Shown here piece by piece: positions 5,761 to 47,689 of a stretch of DNA of 64,000 bases. Location: positions 39,217,366 to 39,281,365 of the forward strand of contig CAIIXF020000001.1 in NCBI GenBank assembly GCA_903813345.2, in the 5' to 3' direction. This stretch comes from Owenia fusiformis. Taxonomy: Eukaryota > Annelida > Polychaeta > Sabellida > Oweniidae. The notes under the pieces were generated by a model. It was not told the origin of the DNA, did no database searches, and saw only the letters and a list, made by a program, of their open reading frames with translations. The position numbers and the translations under genes were made by a program. Position 1 is the stretch's first letter; the number at the start of each line of letters is the position of its first letter.

Positions 5761-6417
5761 AAATTGAGCCTTGTGGGACTCCAGTTTTCATACAAAAATG
5801 ATCCAGTGACTTTAACTGCATATGAACATCTAATAGGTACTATTATTAGTCATGTTTGATCAGTATACAACTATTTTGACTTATTAAATTACAACTTTAG
5901 TCAATTTTTATGATTTTTCGATACATCATGGCAGCCATCTTGGATTTTTGGTGAAAAAGTCAATGGATTGCTTGGTGCCACTTCAGGTTTTCAAAAGAAT
6001 GGTATAAAGTTTTGGAATCCACCTTAAAATTGCTTCTATATAATTTTGAAATATTTTCACCTAAATATTCCTGACTAAAAAACATGTTGTATATGCTATT
6101 TTGGTCCAACGAGGTTCGGAAAGACATTTTATTTCATTCTCAAGAATCAGTAGAAAGGAGCAAAAACAATTGCACTAAAAAACAAAAATGTTAACAAAAA
6201 CAGTTATATAAAATATTTCTAAATAATTTTCGCATTAAATTGTTGTCAATCAGTCAACATTACATAAAATACTGTGTTTTTTTACAGAATGTTTTCAATG
6301 ATTGGTTTAAGAGAAAAACATTGTTAAATTCAGTTCTTCATATTGATACCACTCCTTTACTCCAAAATTTGACAGTCCACTATCCAAAAGTAACCTGGTA
6401 TTAAATAATGCAGCATA

Positions 6418-6601: not shown

Positions 6602-9600
6602 CTGAAAAATAAATAACAAATTCAACAATTTTTGAAGAAAATATTATTCTACAGTAAGTGGATACTGAATTTTTCCAGTTGATTGAATAAAACATTTACC
6701 AGAATGAAGCAACATCTGTATTGGGAAATGAAAAGATATCCTAAAATTCAATGACTTTCAGTCATTATAGTTTCACAAAATGATATGCAAAATGATATAT
6801 AAAAAGGATATTCAATCAATAAATCACTGCGATAAACCATTGAAGAATTGAACAAAATTTAAAGATGATTTTTTTTTGTCAGGAGACACTGCTTCTATTC
6901 TATTCATTCTATACAACCTTTGACACCATGCACATCTAACGAAAGTACTTGGCTCACATGCAATGTCTTTTCAAAAAGAGTTTCAGACTTTTTCAACTTT
7001 TGCAAGAGTTCAGTAAACTTGAATGAAAACATGATATTTTGACAATAAAAGTCCTAAAAAGGTGCCAGGAGTATTGAAGGTAATAATAAAGTTTCTTAGC
7101 TCACCAAAAGAGGGCATTATGTACTTACAGGACTTATCTGTGCTTATTGTGTATTGAACACAGCATTGTATGATTCACAGAAGTATGTTTTGATTATTTT
7201 AACGTCTTCTTATGAGTGAGTCTTAAAGGCTTATCTAGAGCTGTACAAATATTGTATTTAGATTTTCTATGTTCCTTTAACACTGGTCAGTGTCATGATA
7301 ATGGCCACTGTCTTTCAAATTAACTGATATTGACACTTACCATCTGCTATTTAAAAAGCAAGGGCTATTACATTTTGATGCTGAGCAGTGTTTAAATAGT
7401 TCTTTTTTAATTCTTATTCCAACATAAATTGAATTGGAAATTCTGGTCTTACCCAGCGGAAAAGGCTGATGTGTAAAGTCCTGAAGTTATACCATAAGTT
7501 TCAAGATTGTCAGGATATCCACTTTTACTGAAAAAGAAAAAATTATACTTTATCTGAAGCCCAACTTAACTCTATACATGATGAAATAAATAAATCAATG
7601 AAAGGAAGAGGTGATTTTTCCATGGTATGGACATGGTTCCATAGTGGTTGGGCTGGTTCCAAGCCTTCATGGGGATTTTGGGGATTTTTCTCAGATTCAA
7701 AGCAAATGCATTTTTCTTTTTGAAAAAGCTACATATCACTAATCTATCCTCTTCAACAAATTGAATTTCATTCAAGATATTTTGTTGAAACTTATAATAA
7801 TCACGGATAATTAAAGTTCCTGTGTGATTCCTAGTGAATTTATGGAGTTTTCACTAAAAATATGTGATGAAATTTTGACAGTAAACATGGCCACCATTTT
7901 TAAACAATTAAGGTGAGCTTTTGAGACACTTCCCGTGGATCAATGGTTCTTATATAAATATATTTCTGAAGTGTAACCATTTAAAGTATAAACGCATGTC
8001 ATCAATGTGTGGACAGACAGACAGACATACAGACAGACAAAGCAGGTGATAACAATAACTCACCAACATGATCTAGCTAAGGTTACTCCAAACATTTAAA
8101 TTGAATATCAAATGTTGTTTTAAACATTCAAAGAAGATGCACTTACAATGCTGCGATCAAAAGTTCCTGGAGCGGAGGTACTAAAAGAGTAGAAAAGCCC
8201 AAGCCTAGCATGACACTGCTTACAATATTCAACCAGAGTGATTCTCTGGAATAGTAAAAGAAATAAACAAAGTTACGTAATAATGTAAGAAAATATAGCT
8301 AATTTTTTGATGATATTGCATTCCCATGGTAACCAACAGTTTGTTGGAAATATAAATTTTCTCATAGAAAATACATAAATACATATTATTACCACCTTGC
8401 CGGGCCTATTCTATGGGATTAGTGCTAGTTTAGAAGGCTTTTATTTACTTTATTGACCTGAGCAATATGTGATGCATAGTGGCGGGCAATAGTGGCGAGC
8501 CAAAATTGATATTTCATTTTCGTTCAATGGCAGTCAGTTCTTGCTATTTCAGCCCTGGGCATAAATGGTTGTAATAATACTAATAATGTCATCTTTGCAG
8601 GCAAAATAGTGAAATATTGGACCTTGTATTGGACTTGGTCCAATATTTCACTTTATTGCCCTTTGCAAATGGGAAATGGCAATAACAGGTAAAATAGGCA
8701 CTTTATACATAAAATGAATGTGGATATGACTTAATAAGAATAGCAGTTTTAATTTGTGCGGGTAATGTTGATGGACGAACCAACAGACAGAGACAAACCT
8801 GGCATATTTTAATAGATCATAAATAACCATTTAATTTTAATAGGAACCATTTATTGTGCTGTTGAGTAGCTTTCAAAATGTTACTTACATTGGAAGAGAC
8901 AGAAATGGCACCGGTCCCATTAATGAAAATGATACTAAAACCAATATTCCTCCTAAAGCCATTGAACTTTTACACCAGCCCTACAAAATTAAAAAAATTA
9001 TATAATAGTTGAGAACAAGGCAAAGTATATGACCAAATGTCATCACCTGGTTGCATATATTGTCAAAGAGTGAAAATGTAAGTGGAAGTCATTTCGGTTC
9101 CATGGCAACCAATATTGCTTTAACTCTTAAGATGTCTATAACATGCTAAAGCAAGCTATCATTTTATACTTGTTTTAGGTTAACATATTAAGTCATCGGA
9201 AATATCTGTGATAAGTTCATTACTAATCTTTTTCAAACATAGATTTCTTCAGTGCCAAGAAAAATCTTAGCCTACATTTGAAGTACATATTAAGAGTGGT
9301 GATGTAGACGAGTATTCTAGAGCTTTGGTTTTTTTCTTAGAATTCATCGCGATTAGAAGATGAAATTCCTGGAGCTATTTTGTGAGTCTAAGATCTGCGA
9401 TTCATACGATTCATATTCATATGTATTCATGAATCTATAGCAAAGCCTGATGTCTTATGCATTGTGTAACTCATGATCACTATATGAGTTGATGAAATAA
9501 ACATGAACGAAATCTTACTTATTTTGAAATTTATTTTCCAAGTACCAATTCACCCAATATACAGGGTGACCAATGTCCATAATATAAAGTCTCTTAACAC

Positions 9601-12600
9601 TTTACATATTGTATTTATGAAGAGACTTTTTGGACACCCTATATTACAAATTTACCTTTTTATCAAGGATACAGCCAAGAAATGGTGATGCCAAGGCATA
9701 CACTGCTGGCCCCACTAGGAACACAATTCCAACCAAAAGTGGACTTAAATGGAACTGGAATAACAAGGCATTAACATGACAAAATGTCACCACCTAGTTG
9801 CTCACAATATTATGAGTTCAAACTTAAGTCAGATTTGAATTTCTGAGAACTTGTAAAGTCAAATTTGAACTTCTGAAAAGATGTAGATGATTTTGAAAAA
9901 AAAATTTGGTCAATTTGAAGCAAGTTGAAAACAGACCTTTTTGACCTTTTTTGACCTTGAGAAGGTCATTAAAGGTCAAATGTCAAATCTAAAGTCAGAT
10001 TTTAATTTCTGAGAACATGTAGATGATTTTGAAAAAAAAAATTAGTCAATTTGAAGCAAGTTGAAAAAATACCTTTTTGACCTTTTTTGACCTTGAGAAG
10101 GTCATTGAAGGTCAAATGTCAAATCTAAAGTCATATTTGAATTTCTGAGAACATGTAGATGATTTTGAAAAATAATTTAGTCAATTTGAAGCAAGATGAA
10201 AAAATACCTTTTTGACCTTTTTTGACATTGAGAAGGTCATTGAAGGTCAAATGTCAAATCTCAAGTCAGATTTGAATTTCTGAGAACATGTAGATGATTT
10301 TGAAAAATAATTTAGTAAATTTGAAGCAACTTGAAAAAAGACCTTTTTGACCTTTTTTGACTTTGAGAAGGTCATTGAAGGTCAAATGTCAAATCTTAAG
10401 TCAAATCTAAAGTCAGATTTGAATGTCTGAGAACACGTAGATGATTTTGAAATTTTTTTTTAGACAATTTGAAGCAAGTTGAAAACAGACCTTTTTGACC
10501 TTTTTTGACTTGAGAAGGGTATTAAAGGTCAAATGTCAAATCTAAAGTCAGATTTGAATTTCTGAGAACATGTAGATGATTTTGAAAAAAAAATTAGTCA
10601 ATTTGAAGCAAGTTGAAAAAAGACCTTTTTGACCTTTTTTGACCTTGAGAAGGTCATTGAAGGTCAAATGTCAAATCTAAAGTCATATTTGAATTTCTGA
10701 GAACATGTAGATGATTTTGAAAAAAAATTTAGTCAATTTGAAGCAAGATGAAAAAATACCCTTTTGACCTTTTTTGACATTGAGAAGGTCATTGAAGGTC
10801 AAATGTCAAATCTAAAGTCAGATTTGAATTTCTGAGAACATGTACATGATTTTGAAAAAAAAATTAGTAAATTTGAAGCAAGTTGAAAAAAGACCTTTTT
10901 GACCTTTTTTGACTTTGAGAAGGTCATTGAAGGTCAAATGTCAAATCTTAAGTCAAATCTAAAGTCAGATTTGAATTTCTGAGAACACATAGATGATTTT
11001 GAAAAAATTTTTTAGTCAATTTGAAGCAAGTTGAAAACAGACCTTTTTGACCTTTTTTGACCTTGAGAAGGTCATTGAAGGTCAAATGTCAAATCTTAAG
11101 TCAAATCTTAAGTCAGATTTGAATTTCTGAGAACACGTAGATGATTTTGAAAAAAAAAATTAGTCAATTTGAAGGTCAAATGTCAAATCTAAAGTCAGAT
11201 TTGAATTTCTGAGAACATGTAGATGATTTTGAAAAAAAATTTAGTCAATGTGAAGCAAGTTGAAAAAAGACCTTTTTGACCTTGAAAAGTTATTGAAGGT
11301 CAAATGTCAAATCTAAAGTCAGATTTGAACTTCTGAGAACATGTAGATGATTTAGAAAAAAATTGAAGTCAGTCTAAACAGTATTTGTTAAGTTATAGGA
11401 AGGTGTAAGAAATTTACAGACGCCGGACGCCAACCTCCAACCGCCGGACGCCAACCGCCGGACGCCAACCGCCGGACGCCAACCGCCGGACGCCAACCAC
11501 CAACCGCCGTCGCAAAAAAACGGAGACCATAACAATATGTCACCACTTTTGGTGGTGACATAAAAAGTCATCATCACATGGAAAGATTTTGAGTCCTTAA
11601 TGTATTCTACTGTATAAATATACAGTATTACATAAAATATAACGTAAAATGTTAATAAGTGTCAAAAACAAAACAAAATGTTGAGATTTACAAACTTTCG
11701 ATGTATTCATACATCTTCATCAGGTAAACTGATAGCCATGTGGAATTCTTGAAAAACTGTTATGATAACAATAAAATTCCAAAGGGATTCTCGGTCAAAT
11801 GGAATTTTTCTGACTATACAATGAAGGGTACCAAAGACATATTTAATCCCATTTTAAGAGATTCTTCTTTGTCTTTAATGAAATCAACAATAAATGTAAA
11901 AATTGGAAAATATACATGAAGAAATGATGTTACTTCATAAAGACATTGAACTTTACATAAAAGTATGATATGTACAATATTCTTTGGCCGATCAGATCAC
12001 AATCACTTAAATAAAGATTATATCAAAAATGATATAAAAACCAAAGATCTATATCAATTTTGTGATATATCCCAATCTCTGTTATATACTTACTGGTTTT
12101 AAATGCAGAGAATATGCGACATCTAAAAAACCTATAGTGAGAGCTCCCACAAATATAATGTAATACACTAAGAATGTGATAGGCATCTTGAACAATGACA
12201 GTATAGATCCCTGCATATTCTCTAAATCTGAAAGAGGATATCAAATTGTTAATGGCATTCAATGATTCATACAGTGCACTTTTAGCATCGTTCAATCTAT
12301 GATATTCAAGCAGCATCATAAAATTGGGCCATTAGATCAGATGTAAAATTTGAGTAGGATAACAAATACATCCATGCTATTCCTGGATCTAATAAATGGA
12401 AGAAGTTTCAGTTGAAAAAAAACCATATGAATAAAGGAAAGGACTAGGTATAGTATGGCAAGTGATTTTATCTTTCACCAGGAGTACTCACTGGCCATAA
12501 ATACAGTGGTTTTTATTATTTAATAATAAAAAGTGATATCTTCAAGACGAGACTTTCAATAACATTCTTCTTTTGAAGAAGTTTTAGACCCTTTGTTGAA

Positions 12601-15600
12601 TAATCTTTTCATGCAATAAATATCAGAAATAGAAAATCCTCTTTTGAGTAAATAGGTCCAACAATTTGAAAAAAATATTGACAAAATTCATAATTTTGAG
12701 AATTGTTTTATATTTTTGGTATCCTTAAGAATTTATTTGAAACACAACACATTTTGCTAATGAGAAATGTCATATTTAAAGGCAGAATCAGATCTATGGG
12801 GTTAACAAAATTTCAAGCAACATGTACAAATAATATATTATTGTAAAAACCTTTAGTTTTCCTAAGTGCACACTTTGGGGATTTCTAGAAAATGGACATT
12901 AAAAGGTATGATATGAGCCAAAATAATTCTAAAATTGAAACGTTAGGCTGCTCACTAGATGTGATTTTCTCTTTAAATTGAGAAAGTAATCATGTAAACT
13001 ATGACCGTCTCCAATTTCTTGCCCTACCATACCTGGTCCTTTTTTGTAAGGCGAGGCAACTGCCTCATGCCTGACTAAAGTTGGATTTTGGGAGATGTAA
13101 TTTTGAACTGTAGAATACTGCCACTTTCATAAAATTTTGTAACCTTCATGAAAACACCTTTTTTCAGATTACTATGCTCCAGTTAAACCATTCTTTCCTA
13201 AGAAAGATCTGAAAAATCTATAAGGCCAAATAATGGCTCAAATCTAGTTTTCTAGCCACAATCATGAACATCCCTTGTTATTTTTGTTTACGATATATAA
13301 TAATTATCAGTAGTCTTATTTATTTTAAATCACTCACTTTTGGGTGATGGGAGCAACCAAATGCACAGTATTGCTATAAATGTGACTAGAGCCCCTGAGA
13401 CTACGAAGGGGAGCTTAAATCCACCAGCCTACAAAGTTAAAAATGAATTTTTAATGATTATTTTCTGTCAGGGTACAGCAAACCCCATCAAACATCTTAT
13501 TGAGTGATAATCTGGTACAGTTATGCAGCCATTGCTCATTATCACTCAATATTGCTTTCCAGTTTTCAAGCATCTGCTGTATAGTTGATGGTGGACATCT
13601 TTAAAATGGGCTTTGGATCAGAACTTCATAGTTTATAAGGATATATTGCTTTAAAACCTGAACTAAATATGATCATTGCTTGAGCTAATGATGTTACCAA
13701 TAGAATGGATGGACAAACATGTGTGGACATCCGGATGGCCATGTATTTTCTGTATCCCTTCAGATTTTGTTTGATGGGATAATTGGCGAAGTTACACATA
13801 ACATAAAATAATTACTTACTTTATAAATAAGGTACATGTAAATGAGATGCTGATAAGGAGATTTTTGAGCAATTTTTAGTCCTTATACGAATCATTAAAT
13901 TTAAACAACATTAAAACGTGCCTATATTTTAAAACAGTCATTGCTAGAACATGAAAATGTCAAGAGAAATAATAAAGTAAGAATTGTGAGAATTCACTGT
14001 CACATTGCCTTACATTACATTGCCTGACTGTATGTTTAATGACAGTGATCTGCATTTAGTCACTGTTATTGTGAGTGAAAGCATTGTCACTACAATATTG
14101 TCAGTGCACCCTCAACCTCGAAAATAGGGTTCAATCCCATACGTTTGAAACACTTTCTCCATCATGTACATGTAAAAATATTTTGATCTCCAGATTTTTG
14201 AGTGATCTTTCACAACATTTACTAATCAATGAAGTAGAAAGCACCAAAGATGATGAATGTATAGCTACAGACTCTCATTTTTGATTGTTTTCAAAATAAT
14301 ATTTTTTTAATTTTTACAAATGATTAATAACCTGTACATGTACATGTATATTATGATGTAGAAAGTGCAAAAAGTGAAGTGAGTATAATATACAGTATGA
14401 AAGGACAAGATTTGTTTAATACATTATCAAAAAGTGTTGGGTTAGAACATTATAGTAAGTGAAAAGGTAGGGTCTTCTAAGTTAATGAATTCAAGTAAAC
14501 TATCCTATGATGTTATTTCATAAACATGCTACATGTATCATATTTGAAATCTACATATAAGCACCATATAAATGTGGTCTTAAGAATTGTTGATTTACTT
14601 TGAAAATTCAAATAGGTACATAACAACCTAAGATTTGTGAATTTGCAAATCCTAAAATTGAGTTTTCCTAAAATTCCTGCCAGAAAAGCTTGATATCCAC
14701 CCAAAAGTTAATCATCTTTAGAACTTGGTACCCTCTAACATGTTTATAGAATTGAATAAAGAGGAGATCGAGAAGATCAAGCCAACAGAGAAACAAGAAC
14801 ATTTGCCTGGAATGGATATCCAAATTACTTTTTAAAAAGAGCAAAGGAGAATAAAATTATGACAGAACTGAAATCCTAGATTAGTATTATCATTATCATT
14901 CCATGATTACAGCACTCAAAGAGCCTTGCTTATTTTTAAAACCTGACTTGCCCTGGTACACTTGCCATAATACACTGTAGTAGTAGTTGTATTTTACAAA
15001 GTTCTAAAAAACACAAAACAAGCAATAACACATCTACCATGCAGCTAGAAAATGTCGAAAGGGTATCAGTAAATTACCAACAATTCAACCAAACCAAAAT
15101 GAGCCTGAGTATAAGTCTACCTTTGCAAGTATTTATTTCGTTTGAATGAATTGATCATTAGTAATCTAACTGACTCCCATAAGACAATGACCACACTACA
15201 TAGCAAAAAATATTAATTCAACTAATATATACTATGTTAGTAAAAGGTTAAACAACAAATTAGTGCTACATAATGTACCTGAAACAATGCTCCCCCAATT
15301 ACGGGCCCTATCATCATGCCCAAGCCACCAAAAACCTCTATTATGCCCTTAAATGCAACAGACATATAACATAATACATTAAAATAGTTTTGAACTTTCA
15401 ATGGTAGAGTCCTTGTAATTTGGTATAGTTTCATGGGGTTGAGACATGAAATGAGAAAGGATTGGTATCGATATGGTGAACTGAATTCAACATTGTTTTT
15501 CTCAACCAATTATTGAAAATATTCTGGAAATCGTCACTGTTAAACAACAATTTAATGCGAAAATTATTGACATATTTTTATATAACTGTTTTTGTTGGCA

Positions 15601-18600
15601 CTTTTTGTTTTTTGTTCCTTTCTATCAATTCTTGAAAATGAAATATCTTTCCGAACCTTGTTGGAACAAAATAGCATATACATATCTAAATCTAAATCTA
15701 AAAATCTAAATCTATACATGTACAACATTTTCTTAGATCTCTCAATACTATAGTTATACAAAGAAAAGTTTGTTTAATCTAACAAAAAGTATTTAAAAAA
15801 TTAAAACAAAACCCCCCAAAAATAGATAATAATTAGGTAAACCTTTTATTTCATAAACAAGATACTTTTTTAAATGAACCAAACTTTCCATTTTACAATT
15901 ACAACATTGAGAGACCTAAACAAGTGTATATGTCATTTTGTTTCAATGAGGTTTGGATTGATTTTTCATTTCATTCATGTTCCACCTTCATACATGTTAT
16001 ATTAGAGTTAACAGCCATAAACAGTACAATGAACAATGAAAAAGTCCTTCATTTCTATCAGTAAGGAGCTGTAGTTGTCAAACTGAATACCAAAGCCATA
16101 AAAGAACACCTTGAACTGAAGGTTCCTCATCTACAACTGAAAATTGGGTTAATTATTCATACTTAACTCTATCTGTTCACTGGAGACACAGACAGGAGAG
16201 AATACATGTATTTGTATAGAGATAAAAAGCGAGGATAATTTCAGATTTCTGTGTTTCACCTTATGAGGTAATACTGTATCATAGCATTGGATTGATGAAT
16301 TCCCTGGAGCATTTGATGAAAAACATGGGGATTATTTCATATTGAACAAATCTATAAAAGGCCTGTATGTACACAGAACATCAAAATCAAGAACTGAAGA
16401 TTTTCATAAATCATTATGGACCTTAAAAAGGAAATACAGATACAAATCTACAAAGGAATTAATTTGAAAATATGAATTCATCTACCAAAGACATGTTTGC
16501 CACAGGTATGTAGGTATCCATGGCGATAAATTGAATCAATTGACTGGTTAATATCAATTTTGTCATAAAAATCAGCAAATCAACACCTTTCAGTCAGAAT
16601 TTGACAGTTGGTATTTAGACAGGTATGCATGAATCACACCTTTCAATGTAAAAAAAATATGAAGTGGTAACAAAATTGAGCCTGCTAATCAGCAGTATTT
16701 TGGATTTCCAAGGTATGAGTTTGAAACCAAAAATGCCACTTTAAAATTAAAAAGACGATCACTGACTCATCACTGAACTCAAAATATTGAAAATGCAGGA
16801 AAAATATTTCAAGAATGTCCTGTCACCAAGTGCCTAAACTTTGCAAACCCTATCAGAGATGCGTTCAGCATGATAATGGAGAATATGAATGTATATGTAA
16901 CCCAGGATACCATGGAGGAAACTGCATGTTCAGTAAGTAATGTTAGTCTTTCTAACTCTATCAGATCATGCCTTGTTTATTTTTTGATCCTGGCTTTCCC
17001 ATGCAGATGCCTGTTGACCATTGTGGGGATAACAGTTTTATCAATTCCTTTCTAATGTAAAAGCCACAGATGGTATGACAATGCATATTTACAAATTATA
17101 TCTTATTCATGTACAGCTGTTTTTCTTTTAGGTCAAGTGTAGTTGAAGCAATAAAAGTACAGTTTGTACATCAGACTTCAAGTCTTGATAAAATTTTGAA
17201 TACTACAAAGACAATAATACATGTACTCAGGAAATCTAAAGAATCATGAAGCCAGCAAAAAACAACATTAGTGCATTTGTTGTTCAAAAGTGAGAAATGT
17301 AGACATTGTGGGGAAGGAGTGATTCAAAGGAGCACGTAGGTTGTTGCAAACAATTTCAGACGGTTATATCTTGGTTTATGACTATTTTCTGACAATGAAG
17401 ACAGGTTTATCTTTGAGATCCATTATCTCAAAGAAAACCAGAACAACGGCAACGCCAAAGCGTAGCGAATCCCATCGAACAGAAATGACTGACATTTTTA
17501 CAAACGAATAGCAAATATCATAAAACAACACACCAGAAAGGCCACCATTTTCAAAATGGTTGCTCACTGCCAATTAAGTTGTCATCAGAAGAAATAATAT
17601 GCTTTTAAGTAGCTACCTATAAAATTTTTGAAAAATCGCACACATACTTGTAAAATAACACACATAAAAATGGTGGCCATTTTTCAAAATGGCCGACTAC
17701 TCCCCAAAGTTTTACTAGACAATGTGCCATGCTTAAAGTATTCACATATCAAATATGAACAAAATCGCTCCACTACTTTTCGAGTTAAAGTAAAAAATGT
17801 AAAAATGACAGCCATTTTTAAAATGGCCACCTATACTATCCGTAGTGTCATAAGACAGTATGCAAGACTCATGAGTACTCACATATCAAATATGAACAAA
17901 ATCGCTTCACTACTTTTCAAGTTATAGTAGAAAACGTAAAAATGGTGGCCATTTTGAAAAATGGCCACCTTCTACCCAAAGTGTCATTAGACAGTGTGCC
18001 ATGCTTATAGAATTCACATATAAAATATGAAACATACCAAATATGAACAAAATCGCTCCACTACTTTCAAGTTATAGTAAAAAAAACGTTAAAACCTTCT
18101 ACCAAAAGCGTCATTAGACAGTGTGCCATGCTTTTTGTATTCACATACCAAATATAAACAAAATCGCTCCACTACTTTTCGAGTTATAGTAAATGACGTT
18201 AAAATGGCGGCCATTTTTCAAAATTATTTTCAAAATGGCGCCTTCTACCAAAAGTGTCATAGTACAGTGTGCCATGCTTATAGTATTCACATACCAAATA
18301 TGAACAAAATCGCTCCACTACTTTTCGAGTTATAGTAAAATACGTTAAAATGGCGGCCATATTTCAAAATTATTTTCAAAATGGCGCCTTCTACCAAAAG
18401 TGTCATTAGACAGTGTGCCATGCTTATAGTATTCACATACCAAATATGAACAAAATCGCTCCACTACTTTTCGAGTTATAGTAAAAAAATATGTTAAAAT
18501 GGCGGTCATTTTTCAAATTTTTTTTCAAAATGGCCGCCTTCTACCAAAAGTGTCATAGGACAGTGTGCCATGCTTATAGTATTCACATACCAAATATGAA

Positions 18601-21600
18601 CAAAATCGCTCCACTACTTTTCGAGTTATAGTAAAATATGTTAAAATGGCAGCCATTTTTCAAAATGGCCGCCTTCAACCAAAAGTGTCTTGAGACAGTG
18701 TGCAATGCTAATAGTATTCACATACCAAATATGAACAAAATCGCTCCACTATTTTTTGAGTTACAGCAAAAATCGTAAAATGACGAGTAAAGGCCGCCAT
18801 TTTTCAAGATGGCTGCCATGTGCTTCTTTAATATCTACATTTGTAGCATTATTAATGTCCTTTATAATTTTTTACATTTAAAACATATTGCTATTACAGT
18901 TTTACATATTGCACCTAAATTACTGTAAAATCGGCACTAAAATGGCTGCCATTTTGAAATGAGTGGCCATTTTGAAAATCGGCTTTCGAGCAGAACTTCT
19001 ACCCCCATAGGGTATATGTGTACAAAATATGAACAAAATCGGGCCAACGGTATTTGAGTTATTGCCCGGACGGACGGACGGACGGACGGAGGCGTTCCCT
19101 ATATCCCTCCGAACTTCGTTCAAGCAATCAACCCATCAACATACTTTTCAAAGATGTTAACCTCATTTGCACCGAAAATGCAATCATTTTTTACATTGTT
19201 GAATGCATTACTATTCTTTATTTTAATGTATCAAATATTTCTTGAAAGAAAAACTTAATTCCTTTAAGATAAATGTTCCCCACGTTATTTCTCCATTGAA
19301 AAATCTCATGCTATCCATTGGTTTCAGTTCATTTTGGTCATCTAAATTCAGTATCTTTAAAGTTCCTGGAGCAATCAACTTTTCCTCTTAGGAAATAGAA
19401 CGTGTCTCAAAGCAAATTCTAATTATTCATTCAACAATATAATATAAAAGGTTGCATTTTTGGTGAAAATTAGGTCAACATTTTTGAAAAAGTATGTTGA
19501 TTGGTCCATTGCCACTTCAATATCACTTAGGTCTGATTAAATAAATTATCATTATATATACTTTTCTTGAAGATAATGAATGGATCTAAAAGATACACCT
19601 ATGTCAGCATGTTCATGATCAGAAAATATTCATAATTCAAGTTAGAATTGTTTGAAATTGTTTGCGAGTACCTACGTGCTCCTTTGAAAAATAACATGTG
19701 ACCCTATTGAGGGTTGCAGCAAAATTCCGGACATGCACCCTGACCTTAAGGTTTACCTCATCTGTTTAAAGCCTCAAGTAATTTGCGATCCTGGCTAGGC
19801 CTGTGACAATATATTAATAATCAAATATTTCATTTAATCAGGTGTTTGTGATGGGCATCCATGTAAAAACTGGGGAACATGTTTTGCGGGAAGAGATGGG
19901 AGACCAGAATGCAGCTGTGCCCTGGGATATACAGGAAGCAACTGTGAAATCAGTGAGTAAACATACATACATTACGATTCAACAAAATAAACATCAACGC
20001 CTGGAAAAGTATAACAACGGGTCACTTCTTGGTGGTTACATAAGTAGTAGTGCACCAATCTCATAGATATTTATAGAAACTGACTTATTCAATGTTTCAG
20101 TTGAAGGAAGTGTCCCCTCTTCAAGCATTGGCCCAAGTGGACCTCCTACATCTGGCAATGCAATCCTAACTGTGACAGTGATATGTGTGCTAGCAATTGC
20201 ATTTGGCATCATCATTGGCTGTGTTAACATAGTAAACAGGTAAGAGCTTTATGCCATGGAGATTGAACTTGAGAAGAGACTTATGCAAGAAAATGCATGA
20301 TGTTTGAACCCGGGGGGGGGGGGGGTTCACTCCAATATACCTCTTAATACCCATGTGCTGCGCCAAAGACCCCCTTTTTCAGCATTTTTTCCATTTTTCC
20401 TTCCGAGATTGAAAGTTCCCATATATACTTCCTCTCAGACTTATAAAAGGGAGTGATATTGGTATATTTAACAACAAAATCCACCTTTTGGGCGATTTGT
20501 AACATTTGAGTATCTAGAAGAATCAAATGAATCGTAATATTGGCCCATAATTTGTAAACTAGCCCTTCATAAAAACTCAACTTTACTTTTACAGTATAGC
20601 AGTCAATGAGGATTAGGGCACTTTGAAATTTTGTACCCTCTTTGAATAAGTTGATTTTGCTTCTTTAAAAGAGATGTTCATTTGTATTCTTTGAATTCAA
20701 AATAATCATTTGATGTTTTATGTTTATCAGCAGTCATTAACTTTGTCCTATTCTGGGGGAAGTGATTACTACTGAACTTTGGGTCCCAGGGTAAGATTAT
20801 ATGTAAACTTACCCAGTTTTATTTTTCGTTTTCAATATGATTCCAGATACATAAGAAAGGCCTCATCACCTAGGGCTAGCGTGACTGTTGGAGATGATAC
20901 ACATCGTCACACATATGCAAGTGACTGTCACCAATATCAAGAACCAGTAAATGCCCATACTGATAATACTATACTTCATTCATTTAGGGACCTTGAATAT
21001 ACAGAACCTTCAATAAATAGGGTAATACATCTGGGATACAATACACCTCCTTCATTTAGAAACATGGGACATATCAGGCCTTCTTCACATTGCACAAGAT
21101 ACGTGGGACGATTAATAAGAGAGTTTCTGACAAGTAGGACATATTGGAATAACTCTAACACAAACAACAATCAAGGCCTTCACTCTAGGCCTCAATGGAC
21201 AACAACACTTATTTTACCCCCACCTTATTCACCCGTTGATACCAATGAGCATCATGAGCTCACTGAGACAAGCACTCCATATTCACCCATTGATACCACT
21301 GGACATCATGAGCTGACTGAGACAAGCCCTCCCTATTCACCCATTGAGACCACTGGACACCATGAGCTGACTGAGACAAGCCCTCCCTATTCACCCATTG
21401 ATACCACTGGACATCATGAGTTCACTGAGACAAGCACTCCCTATTCACCCATTGAGACCACTGGACATCATGAGCTCACTGAGACAAGCACTCCATATTC
21501 ACCCATTGAGACCACTGGACACCATGAGCTGACTGAGACAAGCCCTCCATATTCACCCATTGATACCACTGGACACCATGAGCTGACTGAGACAGACCCT

Positions 21601-24600
21601 CCATATTCACCCATTGATACCACTGGACATCATGAGCTGACTGAGACAGACCCTCCATATTCACCCATTGATACCACTGGACATCAAGAGCTGACTGAGA
21701 CGAACCCTCCCTATTCACCCATTGATACCACTGGACACCATGACCTGACTGAGTCGAGCCCTCCCTATTCACCCATTGATACCACTGGACATAATGAACT
21801 GACTGAGATAAGCCCTCCCTATTCACCCATTGATACCACTTGACACCATGAGGTGACTGAGACAAGCCCTCCCTATTCACCCATTGATACCACTGGACAT
21901 GCTGAGCTGACTGAGACAAGCCCACCCTATTCACCCATTGATACCACTGGACACCATGACCTGACTGAGACGAGCCCTCCCTATTCACCCATTGATACCA
22001 CTGGACATCATGAGCTGACTGAGACAGACCCTCCCTATTCACCCATTGATACCACTGGACATCATGAGCTGACTGGGACAAGCCTTCCTTATTCATCCAT
22101 TGATACCACTGGACATCATGAGCTGACTGAGACGAGCCCTCCCTATTCACCCATTGATACCACTGGACACCATGAGCCAACTGAGACAAGCCCACCCTAT
22201 TCACCCATTGATACCACTGGACACCATGACCTGACTGAGACGAGCCCTCCCTATTCACCCATTGATACCACTGGACATCATGAGCTGACTGAGACGAGCC
22301 CTCCCTATTCACCCATTGATACAACTGGACACCATGAGCTGACTGAGACGAGCCCTCCCTATTCACCCATTGATACCACTGGACATAATGAACTGACTGA
22401 GATAAGCCCTCCCTATTCACCCATTGATACCACTTGACACCATGAGCTGACTGAGACAAGCCCTCCCTATTCACCCATTGATACCACTGGACATGCTGAG
22501 CTGACTGAGACAAGCCCACCCTATTCACCCATTGATACCACTGGACATCATGAGCCAACTGAGACAAGACCTCCATATTCACCCATTGATACCACTGGAC
22601 ATCATGAGCTCACTGAGACAAGCCCTCCCTATTCACCCATTGATACCACTGGACACCATGAACTGACTGAGACAAGCCCTCCTTATTCACCCAGTGATAC
22701 CACTGGAAACCATGAGTTGACTGAGACAAGTCCTCCATATTCACCCAGTGATACCACTGGAAACCATGAACTCACTGAGACAAACCCTCCCTATTTACCC
22801 ATTGATACCACTGGACATCATGAGCTGACTGAGACAAACCCTCCCTATTCACCCATTAATACCACTGGACATGCTGAGCTGACTGAGACAAGCCCTCTCT
22901 ATTCACCTATTGATACCACTGGACATCATGAGCTGACTGAGAAAAGCCCTCCATATTCACCCATTGATACCACTGGACATCATGAGCTGAATGAGACAAG
23001 CCCTCCCTATTCACCCATTGATACCACTGGACACCATGAGCTGACTGAGACAAGCCCTCCCTATTCACCCATTGATACCACTGGACACCATGAGCTGACT
23101 GAAACAAGCCCTCCCTATTCACCCATTGATACCACTGGACATCATGAGCTGACTGAGACAAGCCCTCCCTATTCACCCATTGATACCACTGGACATCATA
23201 TGACTGAGACAAGCCCTCCCTATTCACCCATTGATACCACTGGACATCATGAGCTGACTGGGACAAGCCCTCCTTATTCACACATTGATACCACTGGACA
23301 TCATAAGCTGACTGAGACAAGCCCTCCCTATTCACCCATTGATACCACTGGACATCATATGACTGAGACAAGCCCTCCCTATTCACCCATTGATACCACT
23401 GGACATCATGAGCTGACTGGGACAAGCCCTCCTTATTCACACATTGATACCACTGGACATCATGAGCTCAATGAGACAAGCCCTCCCTATTCACCTATTG
23501 ATACCACTGGACAACGTGAGCTGACTGAGGCAAGCCCTTCCTATTCTCCCTTTGATACCACTGGACACCATGAGCCAATTGAGACAAGACCTCCCTATTC
23601 ACCCATTGATACCACTGGACATCATGAGCTGATTGAGACGAGCCCTCCCTATTCACCCATTGATACCACTGGACACCATGAGCTGACTGAGACGAGTCCT
23701 CCCTATTCACCCATTGATACCACTGGACATCATGAGCTGACTGAGACAGACCCTCCCTATTCACCCATTGATACCACTGGACATCATGAGCTGACTGAGA
23801 CGAGCCCTCCCTATTCACCCATTGATACCACTGGACATCATGAGCTGACTGAGACGAGCCCTCCCTATTCACCCATTGATACCACTGGACATCATTAGCT
23901 GACTGAGACACACCCTCCCTATTCACCCATTGATACCACTAGACACCATGAGCCAACTGAGACAAGACTTCCATATTCACCCCCTGATACACCTCCTTAC
24001 AATGATGCATTGCCTGGTTATAGAAACAACTAGCAAGAAGCACCTGGTGAATTGTTAGAATCACCTCCTGCTTATAACAGTTTACAAATGGACAGCATCC
24101 TTCAACATGATACAGCTGCAGCCAATGGTTCATACGTGAAAATAGCTGAAGTTGCACACACCTTGGTCAATACTGAATATCTACACACTGATGCCACACC
24201 TGTTAGTCACACTGAGATGGTTGGTGACATGTCATCTGAATGTGAAATAAACAAATGTGTTCCAGATAGAATGAAACTGCTTCAATCAATGATCATTACC
24301 AACTCAAAATGACACTTAGTTAAAGAGATTGAGTTGTCCAGATTTCCCAATATAATTGCTCATAAAACATCATATACGAGGGGTGATTCAAAAGTAATGG
24401 ACAAAATTTTATAGGCATACTAAATTTCACCCAATCAGTCTAATTTTTTCACAGTTAATAGATCAATCAATTTTCTACTTTGTGTCGAATTCTCATTTAA
24501 ATGCATTTGAAATTGTTTCAGCTATGCGTAACCATGGTAACAAGGGTAAGCATGGGTGGAATTGGTTTTTTAATGATAATTGAATGTTTTTGTCATTTTT

Positions 24601-27600
24601 GCTTGATTTCGTTTTAATGACTCAATTACCACACATGATATGTCTAACAAGCATGGTAATGCAATTGTCAAGCAAGACTCACATGCCCATGTGTTTGCTG
24701 TTGAGTTCTAAATTCAGCAACCAATTGTGCTATGACATCACAATATTTCTAAGAATGATGAGTCACAGTGAGTCAGAAAGTAGATCAGACTCTTAGACTC
24801 ACACACATCCAAGAAATGTCTACTTTACAACAAATCAAAGTTAAGCAAAGGATTGAGCTAGTTCAGGATACTCTTGCAGCATTCATGGACATGCCTCAAC
24901 TTCCACATGCTCCATATAGCCCTGATACTGCTCCTTGTGATTTCTATCTTTTTCCCACCCTTAAGATGGCATTAAAGGGACAATCCTTTCAGACATTAGC
25001 TGAGCTGCAAATGGCTGTACAAAAACAGCTGAACACCATGGCTGCTGATGGATTTGGGCATGTGTTCTCTGCATGGGTGCGCCGACAGAAGACAGTAATT
25101 GAACTTGGAGGAGAATACATTGAGGATTGAATATAATTCAAATGGATGATCATCAGGAATAATAAGGAATGATACGGATTATTATTGAACTTACTGCGAT
25201 ATGCTTTTCATATACATCTTGCATTGCAAAATATATTGCACCAGCAAACTTTTCATTGAAAATCCATTTGTTATTATGATGAAAATAGCCTTAAAAATGG
25301 ATTCCGGGTGTATGCACCATGATCCAAGAGAAGTGCTCTATCTCAAAATGTATTTGCATTTAGTTAATAACATTTTAACATCTAATAGATAATTGATTAA
25401 TCTTTATTTGTACAAAGTTTCATTCAAATCTGGTAAAGGTAAGCGTGCCTATAAAATTTTGTCCATTACTTTTGAATCACCCCTCGTATACCTTAGATAT
25501 ATCTTGAGACCAAATCATAAGCACGATATCAATAATATATTGAGGATATCAACAGGACAACCAAAAGAACAACCAACTGTCAGAATTGAACGCAATAAGT
25601 CGAAAACAGAATACAATGTTTTTTGGGGATTTATCTATATTGTAACCCCTTTAGAAGTAATAATATGGCTTCTCAAAGCCAAAATAATCTGAAGGAAAAA
25701 GCCAATCAGACTGGAACAAATTTGAGCAGGCTTTTTAAACTTTAATTTTAATTTCTATTGATGTAAGTGGAAATTCATGGCTAGGAACAATCATCAAATT
25801 GATACTGTTAACGAATTAATTCAAGCCTCAGAATTGATAAGTTGATAAACAAACTTGTTTTACATCAAATAACACAAAAAATCAGGGGGTTACTCTAATT
25901 GTGTTTTTAGGAGACCCGATCTCTTTAAACAATCATGGGAGTGCAATATTCTTGACACCAACTCATTCTTCTTTTCCATTGTCATTAACAATATAATAAA
26001 ATTACAGATTAAATTGTTACCAAATTGTTGATTTACTGAAGTGGGTAAGTACTTGAAATACAAGTATATAGATACCGGTAAAAGGCTCTCGAGTTGTACA
26101 TCTTGGATATCCAAGGTGTGAAGTTTTGAAAATCAAACTGGTATGCGAGTATGGGAGTTGTATCTAATAGCTGAATAAATTAATGTGCACCATTGAGGAG
26201 AGAGGGTGTCTTATTCAGGGATATTGTGCAAAGTCTCTGGTGTAATAACTAATAGCAGAATGAATTCACTCAGAATTGAGTAGGAAGTCTCTTATTCAAG
26301 GATATTGTGTTGAGTCTCTGGTGTTTTGGCTAATAGCAGAATGAATTCACTCATAGTATTGAGTAGGGAGTCTCTTATTCAAGGAAATTGTGTTGAGTCT
26401 CTGGTGTTGTGGCTAATAGCAGAATGAATTCACTCATAGTATTGAGTAGGGAGTCTCTTATTTAAGGAAATTGTGTTGAGTCTCTGGTGTTGTAGCTAAT
26501 AGCAGAATGAATTCACTCATAGAATTGAGTAGGGAGTATCTTATTCAGGGATATTGTGTTGAGTCTGGTGTGTATAGCTGATAGCAGAATGAATTCACTC
26601 AGAATTGAGTAGGAAGTATCTTATTCAGGGATATTGTGTCAAGTCTTTGTTTTTAAAATTTAAAATGGACAGTCTCAAGGACAGCGATATCATTATACCT
26701 GATATAATACACCACCTATAATTGGCCCTGACATCATCCCCAATCCGGAAAATGTCTCAAGTATACCCTAAAATATTCACGTCACAAGGTCAAAGGAGTG
26801 GTATCGATATGGTGAACTTTTTGAACACGAATTTCTGTTAAACCAGTCATCAAAACATTCTGAAAATTTTACACATCGTCAATTTAATGGTCCTCTTTTG
26901 GATGGTAACATTATATATATCCTTTTTTCTATATTGTTTTGGAGAACACATCAGACACTTCTTTTGTTCTTGGTATCATATGTTCGGAATGAAATGAAAC
27001 ATCTATCCGAACCGCATTGGAACAAAACGACATAAACACAATGTGTTTAGTTTAGATCTCTCAATTTTGTAATTGTATAAAGGGAAGTTTGGTTGATTTT
27101 AAAAAAGTATTTTGTTAATGAAATAAAAGGTTTATCTTAATTCTTATCTATTTTTAGGGTTTTTGTTAAGTTTTTGCATACTTTTTGTAAAATCAACCAA
27201 AATTTCCTTTGTATAACTGTAATATTGAGAGATCAAAGAAAATGTTGTATATGTTATTTTGTTCCAACAAGGTTTGCAAAGACATTTTATTTCATTCTCA
27301 AGAATTGGTAGAAAGGAACAAGAAACAATTGCACTAAAAAACAAAAAATGTTAACAAAAACATTTATATAAAATATATATAAATAATTTTTGCATTAAAT
27401 TGTTGCCAATCAGTCAGCATTACATAAAGAATGTTTTCAATAATTAGTTTAGGAGAAAAACATTGTTGAATTCAGTTCGCCATAGCGACCTATTACAGTA
27501 CATCCTTTGTGTCAAATCCCTTTCCTCCAGTTTTCAGACAATAGTAAAACAATAAGCATAAAGATTAATAGAATCCTGTCATATTACATTTTAAGTGAAT

Positions 27601-30600
27601 CACAAAAATACGTAAAATCAGGGCAAATTGAACAGATACAAGTATAGCATTGTACTTACAAACATGGTGGAGACCCTGTCGGGGAATGTGTATGCCATGA
27701 TAGCAAATGATGCAGTAGCGTATGCACTGGTCCCAAGAGCTTCTAAAGTACGAACTGTTAAACACAATACAACATAAATCCAGCCATTAGGAGACTCATC
27801 AAGAAATCTGCAACAAAAAAGAAAATTACGAATGTTATAACTTTCATTTGGTGTAGATTTATGATTTTGGATCAAAAGGATTGGTATCAAAATGGCAACC
27901 TGAATTGAACACATTTATATATAATATATAACAAAGTTCATGAGTCTACTGCACGTTATACCTGCTTTGTACGATTTTGATATTTTTACATATTGTAGAT
28001 TTAAATGTTGTCTTTCGAGGAAATCAAATTTTCCTTTGTATAACTATAATATTGAGAGGTCTTAAGAAAATGTTGTTTTAGAAGATGCTATTTTGTTCGC
28101 ATTAAATTGTTGTCAATCATTGACCATTACATAAATGACCATGTTTTTTACAGAATGTTTTCAAAAATTGGTTTAAAAGAAAAACAATGTTGAATTCATT
28201 CAGTTCACCATATCGATACCAATCCTTTATGGCAATTCAATGATAAAGTGGTGTTTTTAGCACAACTTGGAGAATGTCCAAAAGGAGTAAAAGTAAGAAT
28301 AATGTGCTCATAGATACACCAGCGCAAAATGTTTTAACATTTCGTTAGTGACAAAAAACAAAACAACATGCAATCAGGAATATCGGTAAGATCCTGAGAA
28401 AATCCTGGAACAGAATAAGTGCTCATATTTAGAGATTTCCCCAAAAAATGTGTAACTCCCATGTCTTGCCAATTCTAATTCACCTTCTATATATTTTGAC
28501 AGTAGAATATCTAAAGTGAAAACTGATGAAAAATTCAAGATTTGGAAATTGCTATGCGGTTTTAGGACATTTCACATAACACTACTGGTTTAGAACATAT
28601 TGTATATATACCTACCCAAATATCACATTGCACCCTCCAGCTACAAACAGTCCTGCGACAAACATGAACTTGGCTCCTACCCTAGTTAACTGCATAAACC
28701 AAAGCACAAATGAGCTTTACATTTCATTATATGAAGATCTAATTGAGCAATATACATGGAGCTAGAAATGGAGATTGAGATAACCCTTTACAATACATCA
28801 TTCTCTTGAAAGCCCATGATTTTATGTATCAGAAACACCAATTCACATAAATAAAACACTTCTTTAGAAATAAATTGACTGCAAAAGATAAGTGTAAATT
28901 GAAATTCCAAAATCCTGCATGAGATTATCACATTTAATCTTTATTTTCTTTTGTGTTTAATTTTTTAATTTAAACTTACAATTGCTCCAAAGAATGGTGA
29001 TGTTAAAAACATAACAACTGCAAATATTCCAAAGATGAGGCCTGTCATTGTTTCTGATGCTCCTTTCTTATTAGCCTGCAAAGAGCAAAATAAAAAATTA
29101 TGGTGTTCTTGACCCCCATAAACAGCCCCTGGAATATATGTTAAATATATTTATGGATAAATGTCTAAATTTCAAATAATACAATTCGGAGTGAAACTGG
29201 GAATGGGACTGACAAATAACTGATAGCTTTATAGTACTACGGCCAAGGCCATTTGTGTCCAAAACCCCTAGATTCAATTTGACTTTAGATTCTTGTAGGG
29301 GACCTCAAGGCATGTAAAAAATTTTGTGAACCCTTGCAAAGCAGGCTCAAAAGTGTTGAGTCAGCAAATTTTATCATTTTCGAGTCGGAGTTTGACCATA
29401 TGCTTGAAGCTATTAATATCTCATTTGAGGATGTTGCAATTATAATGAAACATTGTTAATATATAAATAGCCCAATTTACACTACGCGCAGCATCCCAAG
29501 ACGTTTTGGCTAAAACGTTTTAGGAAAATTATGTTGAGTTTAAATTACCATTTTCAAGACGTCTTAGGAAATAAGATCGAGTTTACACCTGTTTTCCTAA
29601 AACGTCTTAGAGATACATGTATGTAGGTATACATGTAAAATGAAAAAAGCAGTTCAGTACTGGTTTAAGGACCGTTCAGTTCAGTCAATATAGATATTCC
29701 TTTCCCGCTTCTATACTTTGTACCCGACTTTGTACTAAAGAATGCATCAGTTTCAGAAAAATATGTCATAAAGACAGCATTGTTAAAAGCATGGAAGAGA
29801 GCATGAAGATTTTATGCATAAATTAGGATTATGATAAATCGCCAGGCAAATAAGTTCTTTTCAATAATTTTGGGATGATATTGGGAACAAGGGATAAGAC
29901 AAAACAGAGGACTATGCGACATATGTAAATGGAAAGATTCAAATGTTTCGTTCGGTGCAACGCAAAAAAACCGGGCTAAGAGCTCTTAGCTAGAACCGAT
30001 GGATTTACACTAGCTTGTAAAACGTTTTAACGCTAAGACGTCTTAGCTATGACTAGGGTCCTAAAACGTTTTAGCTAAGCGCTCTTAGCCGAGAGCTCTT
30101 AGCTCTGGATTTACATTACATTTGTAGAACGTTTTAACGCTAAAACGTTTTAGCTAAGACGTCTTAGCGCGCTAGTGTAAATCCAACAAATAAGGCATGT
30201 ATGAAGAATTCCTGAAAGTTTGGGTCTTATCCAACAAAATTTGGTAGAGATATGGGATAATTTGTCACTAAAGTACATAATTTCTCTATAAAATTTCTTA
30301 ATCAGTCATTTAAAAACAGTAAGGGCCTATGGTATAACAACAAATTGTAACAACAAATGATTAAGAGCCAGAGTTACTAAGAGCCTGGTTGCAGTTTGCA
30401 CACTTTGTATTGTACATATATATATACACTTTGTATTGTATATATGTCATAAATTGTTTAGTTGTAGTCTGTAGAACATAACAGGATGTGTATGTAATGT
30501 CAAAATAATAGATCTTGTTCATAGGCGTAGCTACTAGCTAGGGATGGGATCGCACTCCCCCCCAAAACCAATAAAAAATATAACCATGAGATAGAAGAAA

Positions 30601-46755: not shown

Positions 46756-47689
46756 ACATCTCTATGTTACAATAACTTTGTGAGTATTGTTGAAACATAT
46801 ACACAATAGTGTTGAAACATGTACACTCAAGTCCTGGAAGTTGATCCTGATTCCTATTTGGGGAGATAGATATAAGCAATTTTCAACTTAGGTCATTGAT
46901 GAGAAATCAGAATCTTTTGGAAAGTGGTGCCTAATATATCCCCTAGCTTTTGGAAAGAATTGGTATCGATATGGGGAACTTTTTGAACACATGTTTCTCT
47001 TAAACCAGTCATCAAAAATTTCTTAAAATCTTACACATTGCCATTTTAATGGCCATCTTTTGAATTGTAACAATATAATTTGAAATAGATATACATAAGT
47101 TCATCTATATTGTTTTAAAAAACACATCAAACACTTGTTGTGTTCTTGGTATCATGTTTCCAGAGTGAAATGAAACATCTTTCCGAACCTCATTGGAACA
47201 AAACGACATAAACACAACATGTTTAGGTCTCTCAATATTGTAATTGTACAAAGGAAATTTTGGTTCATTTTAAAAAAGTATCTAGTTAATGAAATAAAGG
47301 GATTTTCTTGATTTTTATCTATTTTGGGGGGATTTTGTTTTAATTTTTGAATACTTTTTTAAAATGAACCAAAAATTCCTTTGTATAACATTAATATTGA
47401 GAGGTCTAAAAACATGTTGTATACGCTATTTTGTTCCAACAAGGTTCGGAAAGACCGGAAAGACATTTTATTTCATTCTCAAGAATTGGTAGAGAGGAGC
47501 AAAAACAATTGCACTAAAAAACAAAAAATGTTAACAAAAACGGTTATATAAAATATTTCTAAATAATTTTCGCATTAAATTGTTGTCAATCAGTCAACAT
47601 TACATAAAATACCATGTTTTTTTACAGAATGTTTTTAATGATTGGTTTAAGAGAAAAACATTGTTGAATTCAGTTCTCCATATCCACGG

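Follow-up and report, generated by a model that had tools for sequence, protein, structure and literature searches.

Does the SLC18B1-like transporter gene of the annelid Owenia fusiformis possess two interchangeable exons for its fifth transmembrane segment (TM5), and is the second of them a working alternative, a relic, or an accident of assembly? The question is raised by a stretch of 64,000 nucleotides of contig CAIIXF020000001.1 (positions 39,217,366 to 39,281,365; this whole stretch is referred to here as the window), on the minus strand of which the gene runs from 31264 to 6418 and comprises 13 exon positions, with exon 5 present twice. A preliminary description had singled out the two copies, 5a (26767-26699) and 5b (15347-15279), as alternative versions of one membrane segment, and our gene model, which was rebuilt from splice sites and homology to paralogs, confirmed its coordinates, 69-nt lengths, phases, and splice sites for both exons on the minus strand. 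We consider it likely, from the genomic sequence, that a TM5 exon was duplicated in tandem long ago and that 5a and 5b can substitute for one another, giving two isoforms of 510 amino acids.

Two versions of the motif C exon

Exons 5a and 5b are open over 69 nt each, begin and end in phase 0, and have AG before and GT after them. Either one fits in phase 0 between exon 4 (end 27660) and exon 6 (start 13428), and the product is 510 amino acids long with either, both full frames being open for 510 codons. The exons lie 11.35 kb apart and differ at 22 of 69 nucleotides and 7 of 23 residues; this residue count, the common GP(x)2GG core, and the junction coordinates of the preliminary description were all found to be correct on recheck. 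They are adjacent homologues of equal length and phase with splice sites on both, as tandem duplicated exons are. Chance similarity was rejected on the E-values for the window and the whole genome: 5b as a query against the open frames of the window matched 5a with an E of 4e-12, and in the genome (498 Mb in 525 contigs of one species, in which our searches can miss weak matches) the two exons matched each other at an E of ~1e-3, ranking above the exons of three paralogs. A profile built from four exon-5 peptides gave 57.7 bits for 5a and 48.1 bits for 5b, scores that are partly by construction as both peptides were included, and 5.9 bits for the next frame in the window; it detected no third copy of exon 5 in the window or in the paralog loci. 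Exon 5 is the sole exon of the gene with a second copy in the window, where 18 matches at an E of <=0.05 comprised 14 exons themselves, the two 5a/5b cross-matches, and two weak matches outside exons. By these measures and those of age and constraint below, 5a and 5b are, as far as DNA can indicate, a real, old, and constrained exon pair.

The joining in of 5b from another locus or allele during assembly is an exceedingly improbable origin of the pair. Close relatives of the gene do exist in the genome, including one on an unplaced contig of 25 kb, but the DNA of 5b matches only itself in the 498-Mb assembly and differs from the paralog exons found, no other exon is duplicated in the window, and the window contains no N.

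The 510-residue product matched Pfam family MFS_1 (E 3e-43). In a phmmer search of the PDB, the best match was SLC18B1 (9d7u, E 5.9e-74), and the top chains of VMAT2 (8xit, 2.3e-12) and VAChT (9kkn, 2.8e-10) fell far behind; the earlier assignment to SLC18B1 is borne out. The gene would encode an SLC18B1-like protein of the major facilitator superfamily (MFS), of the vesicular polyamine transporter type, with proton-driven movement of polyamines into vesicles as its predicted activity. The TM5 segment of 9d7u aligned over 23 residues is identical to 5a at 16 and to 5b at 12.

Motif C of the MFS has the consensus G-X8-G-X3-GP-X2-GG (PMC10604125). All six of its residues are retained in both exons (Gly at 1, 10, 14, 18, and 19 and Pro at 15), and since the first motif glycine is the first residue of the exon and the rest lie within it, the exon spans motif C from its first residue to its last. 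The seven differing positions (3, 5, 7, 13, 16, 20, and 22) are all X positions or lie behind the motif; the chance that seven positions drawn at random would leave the six motif residues untouched is 8%, so that this sparing is not significant alone. Of the seven changes, Ser/Ile at residue 13 is the largest. In VMAT2, Val232 of TM5 is a residue of the tetrabenazine pocket (PMC10959523), and by alignment, with residues counted by hand, it corresponds to exon residue 11, which is Met in both 5a and 5b. The equation of the Ser/Ile position before GP with Val232 was tried and dropped, the alignment placing Val234 there and Val232 at the invariant Met. On a helix wheel with Val232 as the reference, positions 7 and 22 fall within 40 degrees and the angular distance of the other five is 80 to 180 degrees, a hint at most, given that the wheel assumes an ideal helix through the proline kink. 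The proposal that the exons swap motif C was in this respect overstated, as the six consensus residues and the Met aligned with Val232 are identical; what stands is that the TM5 surroundings of the motif vary. For the same reason, the suggested tuning of substrate or coupling is possible but is not indicated.

Age of the duplication and constraint on exon 5b

Three other genes of the family in the genome are full or nearly so (C4a on C4, C289, and C10), and each has one exon 5; a second copy on C4, C4b, is without exons 3 to 7. Among the family genes found, the window gene (C1) alone has two copies of exon 5, as would be the case if 5b had arisen from 5a recently, in this lineage only, and were simply diverging from it. 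We judge this to be extremely unlikely: 5a is nearer to the C4 exon (14/69) than to 5b (22/69), 5a and 5b have diverged at synonymous sites more than twice as far as have the C1 and C4 genes, and the tree that a young copy predicts has none of the four informative sites.

The exon-5 tree, which is unrooted and built on 69 nt, groups 5a with C4a and 5b with C10. The remaining nucleotide differences are 21 between 5b and C10, 22 between 5b and C4a, 26 between C4a and C10, and 27 between 5a and C10, giving a four-point sum of 35 for this tree, compared with 48 and 49 for its rivals (codon bootstrap of the sums, 99.8%). All four informative sites favor it, the ordinary bootstrap is 100 under HKY+G, and support by resampling of estimated log-likelihoods (RELL) is 0.885 to 0.958 under HKY+G, K2P, GTR, and a codon model. 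For the rival trees, the approximately unbiased (AU) test gave p values of 0.03 (K2P and GTR), 0.05 (HKY+G), and 0.07 (codon model). Reciprocal loss, in which each single-exon paralog would have kept a different copy, may underlie this grouping, the root not being fixed.

The other exons allow the divergence of the pair to be compared with that of the genes. They were compared over 286 codons; exons 1, 7, and 13 and some exon ends were omitted because their alignment was gapped or they were not found in all four genes, and C4b was omitted for want of exons 3 to 7. Synonymous differences over these codons are 61/211.7 between C1 and C4a and 128.7/213.8 between C1 and C10. The figure for 5a and 5b, 12/16.5, exceeds the former (p 8e-4, Fisher; 2e-4 to 4e-4, binomial) and is like the latter (p 0.45), and that for 5a and C4a, 4/16.8, is as expected from the gene split (p 0.78). 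Since 5a and 5b have diverged at synonymous sites by more than the C1/C4 split, the exon duplication is probably older than the C1/C4 gene duplication; the pair most likely predates the C4 genes, and the C4 line would have lost 5b. We are less sure that C10 kept a 5b-type exon, as suggested by the 21/69 differences between 5b and C10, which resemble those of the other exons of C1 and C10 (234/858, p 0.58); the value for 5a and C10 is higher (p 0.05), and that for C4a and C10 is higher as a tendency only (p 0.13). The intron lengths would suit retention of the downstream exon copy in C10 and of the upstream one in C4: in C10, intron 4 is long (~2.6 kb) and intron 5 short (~0.1 kb), and in C4a this is reversed (~0.2 and ~0.7 kb).

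Gene conversion rendering 5a similar to C4 was also considered and is not needed, as the 14/69 differences between 5a and C4a are not below those in the rest of the gene (120/858). Amino-acid change between 5a and C4a stands at 10:4 in exon 5 and 59:61 in the rest, and the faster rate is not significant (p 0.16). No intron sequence shared above shuffles was found between the 300-nt flanks of 5a or 5b and C4a, C289, or C10. The upstream flanks of 5a and 5b do match one another (26867-26792 with 15531-15456; score 57, compared with at most 36 after shuffling), and we read this match as a dispersed repeat because most of it recurs in the window, for example at 46954-47017 and 664-742; alternatively, it may be a remnant of a duplicated flank.

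The ratio of nonsynonymous to synonymous substitution rates (dN/dS) between the two exons, a check proposed in the preliminary description, is ~0.08, with nonsynonymous differences at 10/52.5 and synonymous differences at 12/16.5 (Fisher p 1.8e-4). Private changes number 4 in 5b (2 of them synonymous), 5 in 5a, 4 in C4a, and 7 in C10, and the corresponding maximum-likelihood branches are 0.16, 0.15, 0.13, and 0.31; with no more private changes than the other exons, 5b evolves no faster than exons that must work. In a neutral simulation with 22 differences, not one of 20,000 copies combined an open frame and intact splice dinucleotides on both sides with at most 7 amino-acid changes. The earlier view of 5a and 5b as two functional alternatives under constraint gains support from the low dN/dS, from the probable age of the pair relative to the C1/C4 split, and from the unaccelerated evolution of 5b.

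Splice sites and the proposed choice between the exons

All splice sites of the gene are GT-AG, the acceptor and donor being TTTTAG and GTATAA for 5a and TTTAAG and GTACAT for 5b. The sites were scored by a leave-one-out profile of 37 acceptors and 35 donors, of which 13 of each belong to the window gene and the rest are placeable sites of C4a, C289, and C10. By this profile, the lowest-scoring of the 35 donors is that of 5a, the 5a acceptor is the ninth weakest of the 37, and the 5b donor, the tenth weakest, is better than that of 5a. None of three grounds for mutual exclusion, which are frequent in such exons but not required, was found, namely, a break of the frame, incompatibility of U2 and U12 sites (all sites are GT-AG; U12-type signals were not scanned for), or steric distance.

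Under the reading that we prefer, a single TM5 exon starting at the first glycine of motif C would have been duplicated in tandem long ago, at a time when the gene had yet to be copied to chromosome C4; C4a would have kept the 5a type only, and the exon of C10 is closest to 5b. Exon 4 would be spliced to 5a or 5b and then to exon 6, giving two 510-residue isoforms with the same motif C skeleton and seven differing positions elsewhere in the helix. The choice may rest on competition between weak splice sites, and the pairing of inverted repeats, which would loop out 5a and bring exon 4 near 5b, may assist it. Two copies of a dispersed repeat of ~480 bp, inverted with respect to one another, bracket 5a, and their predicted duplex (-386 kcal/mol) compares with a mean of -98 kcal/mol for 10 shuffles; once the two were paired, exon 4 would lie ~210 nt from the first copy, and 5b would lie 157 nt from the second. 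As there are other copies in the window, the bracketing of 5a may be coincidence. Copies of this repeat were observed at 26950-27450, 47126-47608, 846-1131, and 6077-6268 (+) and at 15504-15976 (-); it has internal inverted repeats, and intron 4 of the C10 gene contains a related sequence.

Since the frame is kept in either event, the inclusion of both exons or of neither would add or remove a 23-residue membrane segment, and only single inclusion should give a working protein. We infer that both exons are spliced today, never in the same transcript, and that the two isoforms are functionally distinct. Exclusivity would then depend on regulation and on the burden that an additional membrane segment would impose, joint inclusion being in frame; a similar argument has been made for exons encoding transmembrane helices (PMC5740500).

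Several observations weigh against this account. The 5b acceptor ends in AAG after a poor pyrimidine tract and is the fourth weakest of the 37; the two exons of 69 nt, 11.35 kb apart, together keep the frame, so that nothing in the sequence enforces exclusivity; and the three paralogs make do with a single exon 5. The exon-5 tree has 23 codons only, its synonymous counts are near saturation, and HKY+G and the codon model do not reject the rival trees at 0.05. The outcome of the neutral simulation depends on the number of differences: frame, splice dinucleotides, and 7 or fewer amino-acid changes are retained in 12% of copies with 12 differences and in 45% with 8. The terminal branch of 5b carries ~8 changes (counted by hand), at which 46% of neutral copies keep the frame and splice dinucleotides and 9% also keep 7 or fewer amino-acid changes together with G10, GP, and GG.

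The weak acceptor, the evident dispensability of one copy in the single-exon paralogs, and the short terminal branch would all suit a relic, an old exon formerly in use that only lately ceased to be spliced and shows no visible decay so far. We hold this to be unlikely, given that 5b has no stop, frameshift, or lost splice dinucleotide, retains motif C complete, has just four private changes, half of them synonymous, with no excess over the other exons, and possesses a donor that outscores that of 5a. It is very unlikely, in our view, that both exons are included together or that 5b is the regular exon and 5a the optional one. The preserved frame and the weakness of the 5a donor fit such arrangements, but a second 23-residue membrane segment would be expected to disturb the topology of the remainder, and 5a is nearer to the SLC18B1 chain than is 5b (16/23 against 12/23).

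The locus, its paralogs, and comparable exon pairs

The exons and the two repeat copies that bracket 5a are listed in the table. Exon 1 is 65 to 71% identical to its counterparts in C4a, C289, and C4b, and a stretch similar to exon 7 was found in C289 only (52% of 21 amino acids) and not in C4a or C10.

Features of the SLC18B1-like gene and of two repeat copies within it (window positions)
Feature	Position	Strand	Basis
Exon 1 (coding part from ATG)	30968..31264	-	Open frame and GTAAGT donor
Exon 2	28980..29075	-	Splice sites and paralog homology
Exon 3	28616..28689	-	Splice sites and paralog homology
Exon 4, phase-0 end, joins 5a or 5b	27660..27807	-	Splice sites and paralog homology
Intron 4 copy of the ~480-bp dispersed repeat, opposite in orientation to that at 15504-15976	26950..27450		
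Exon 5a, TM5 (69 nt, phase 0-0) with all of motif C; clusters with the C4a and C289 exons	26699..26767	-	
Inverted copy of the dispersed repeat, upstream of 5b	15504..15976		
Exon 5b, putative alternative TM5 (69 nt, phase 0-0) with all of motif C and a weak AAG acceptor; clusters with the C10 exon	15279..15347	-	
Exon 6, joins 5a or 5b	13338..13428	-	Splice sites and paralog homology
Exon 7, by position the TM6-TM7 loop	13033..13107	-	Splice sites
Exon 8	12094..12227	-	Splice sites and paralog homology
Exon 9	9656..9754	-	Splice sites and paralog homology
Exon 10	8889..8980	-	Splice sites and paralog homology
Exon 11	8147..8245	-	Splice sites and paralog homology
Exon 12	7453..7527	-	Splice sites and paralog homology
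Exon 13, carries the stop codon	6418..6601	-	Splice sites and paralog homology

The intron between 5a and 5b contains a 54-bp tandem array (21219-23990, 51 copies, 91% matches). On the plus strand, from 20776 to 23895, the array lies in one frame as an 18-amino-acid repeat that follows ~150 nonrepeat residues, with two in-frame stops. Codon changes among 36 in-register units comprise 44 synonymous, 43 nonsynonymous, and 2 stop changes, compared with a possible 40:115:7 (p 1e-4, a value affected by the nonindependence of the copies), hinting at a nested antisense coding repeat; a 486-amino-acid stretch of this frame had no match in Pfam.

Among the related genes, C4b (C4:21633000-21645500) has an exon 8-like stretch ~230 bp past exon 2 and is probably a broken or shortened gene. 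The C289 gene (C289:10200-20100) is a close copy of C4a (dS 0.07) with an identical exon 5, on an unplaced contig of 25 kb, and would be either a recent duplicate of C4a or an allelic leftover of assembly. At C9:27576595-27578328, an intronless open reading frame of 577 amino acids is related to the SLC18B1-like gene (31% over ~150 amino acids) and has a VMAT-like TM5, GIALAFISFGCLFAPPFGGVLYQ; it is perhaps an SLC18A-type transporter of Owenia fusiformis.

Tandem duplicated exon substitution is a well-known kind of variation, rich in channels and transporters, with 236 human events (PMC9741552) and 629 human clusters of mutually exclusive exons (PMC5740500) described. Exons 5a and 5b resemble these in being homologous neighbors of equal length and phase that are old, differ mostly by conservative changes, keep their key residues, and form part of a folded membrane protein; they differ from the known mutually exclusive exons in being known from genomic sequence alone, in the 11.35 kb between them, and in the open frame of joint inclusion. 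In the parts of PMC9741552 and PMC5740500 covered here, no SLC18 member is named. The deposited SLC18B1 (VPAT) chain 9d7u has one version of the TM5 segment of which the Owenia fusiformis gene has two.

Among human solute carriers, SLC25A3 and SLC39A14 have mutually exclusive exons (PMC5740500). These likewise are alternative exons in a transporter, but in other families. To our knowledge, neither SLC25A3 nor SLC39A14 belongs to the MFS or contains motif C. No report of a duplicated exon in SLC18B1 was found among the matches listed for the open-licence literature (titles and abstract openings), in keeping with the preliminary remark that no alternative motif C exon had been described in this gene, and the 5a/5b pair appears to be a new member of the tandem exon list.

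The loss of tandem exons after gene duplication has precedents: different ones were kept in CACNA1F and CACNA1S and in the FYN family, and one gene of the PGM1/PGM5 pair retains both (PMC9741552, in the portion consulted). The present family is like these in having one gene with both exons and paralogs with one each, although, compared with CACNA1F/CACNA1S and the FYN family, the retention of the 5b type by C10 rests on a short tree of 69 nt. Extending this comparison, we tentatively propose, as a possibility that we would place short of probable, that an ancestral animal SLC18B1-like gene had two substitutable exons, either of which carried motif C in full, and that one descendant switches between both, C4 fixed 5a, and C10 fixed 5b; the isoforms of the one gene would then be the TM5 variants of its paralogs, and a switch that spares the motif would serve to tune the hinge helix.

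Splicing of both exons, if it occurs, would make the gene a natural experiment on the antiporter helix of MFS proteins: evolution would have tried out two forms of TM5 while the remainder of the protein stayed the same. The family has a known drug-binding residue in that segment (VMAT2 Val232), and additional forms of the exon are available in the paralogs. The list of tandem exons would then gain a pair from an SLC18 transporter and a case in which the duplication of an exon preceded that of the gene.

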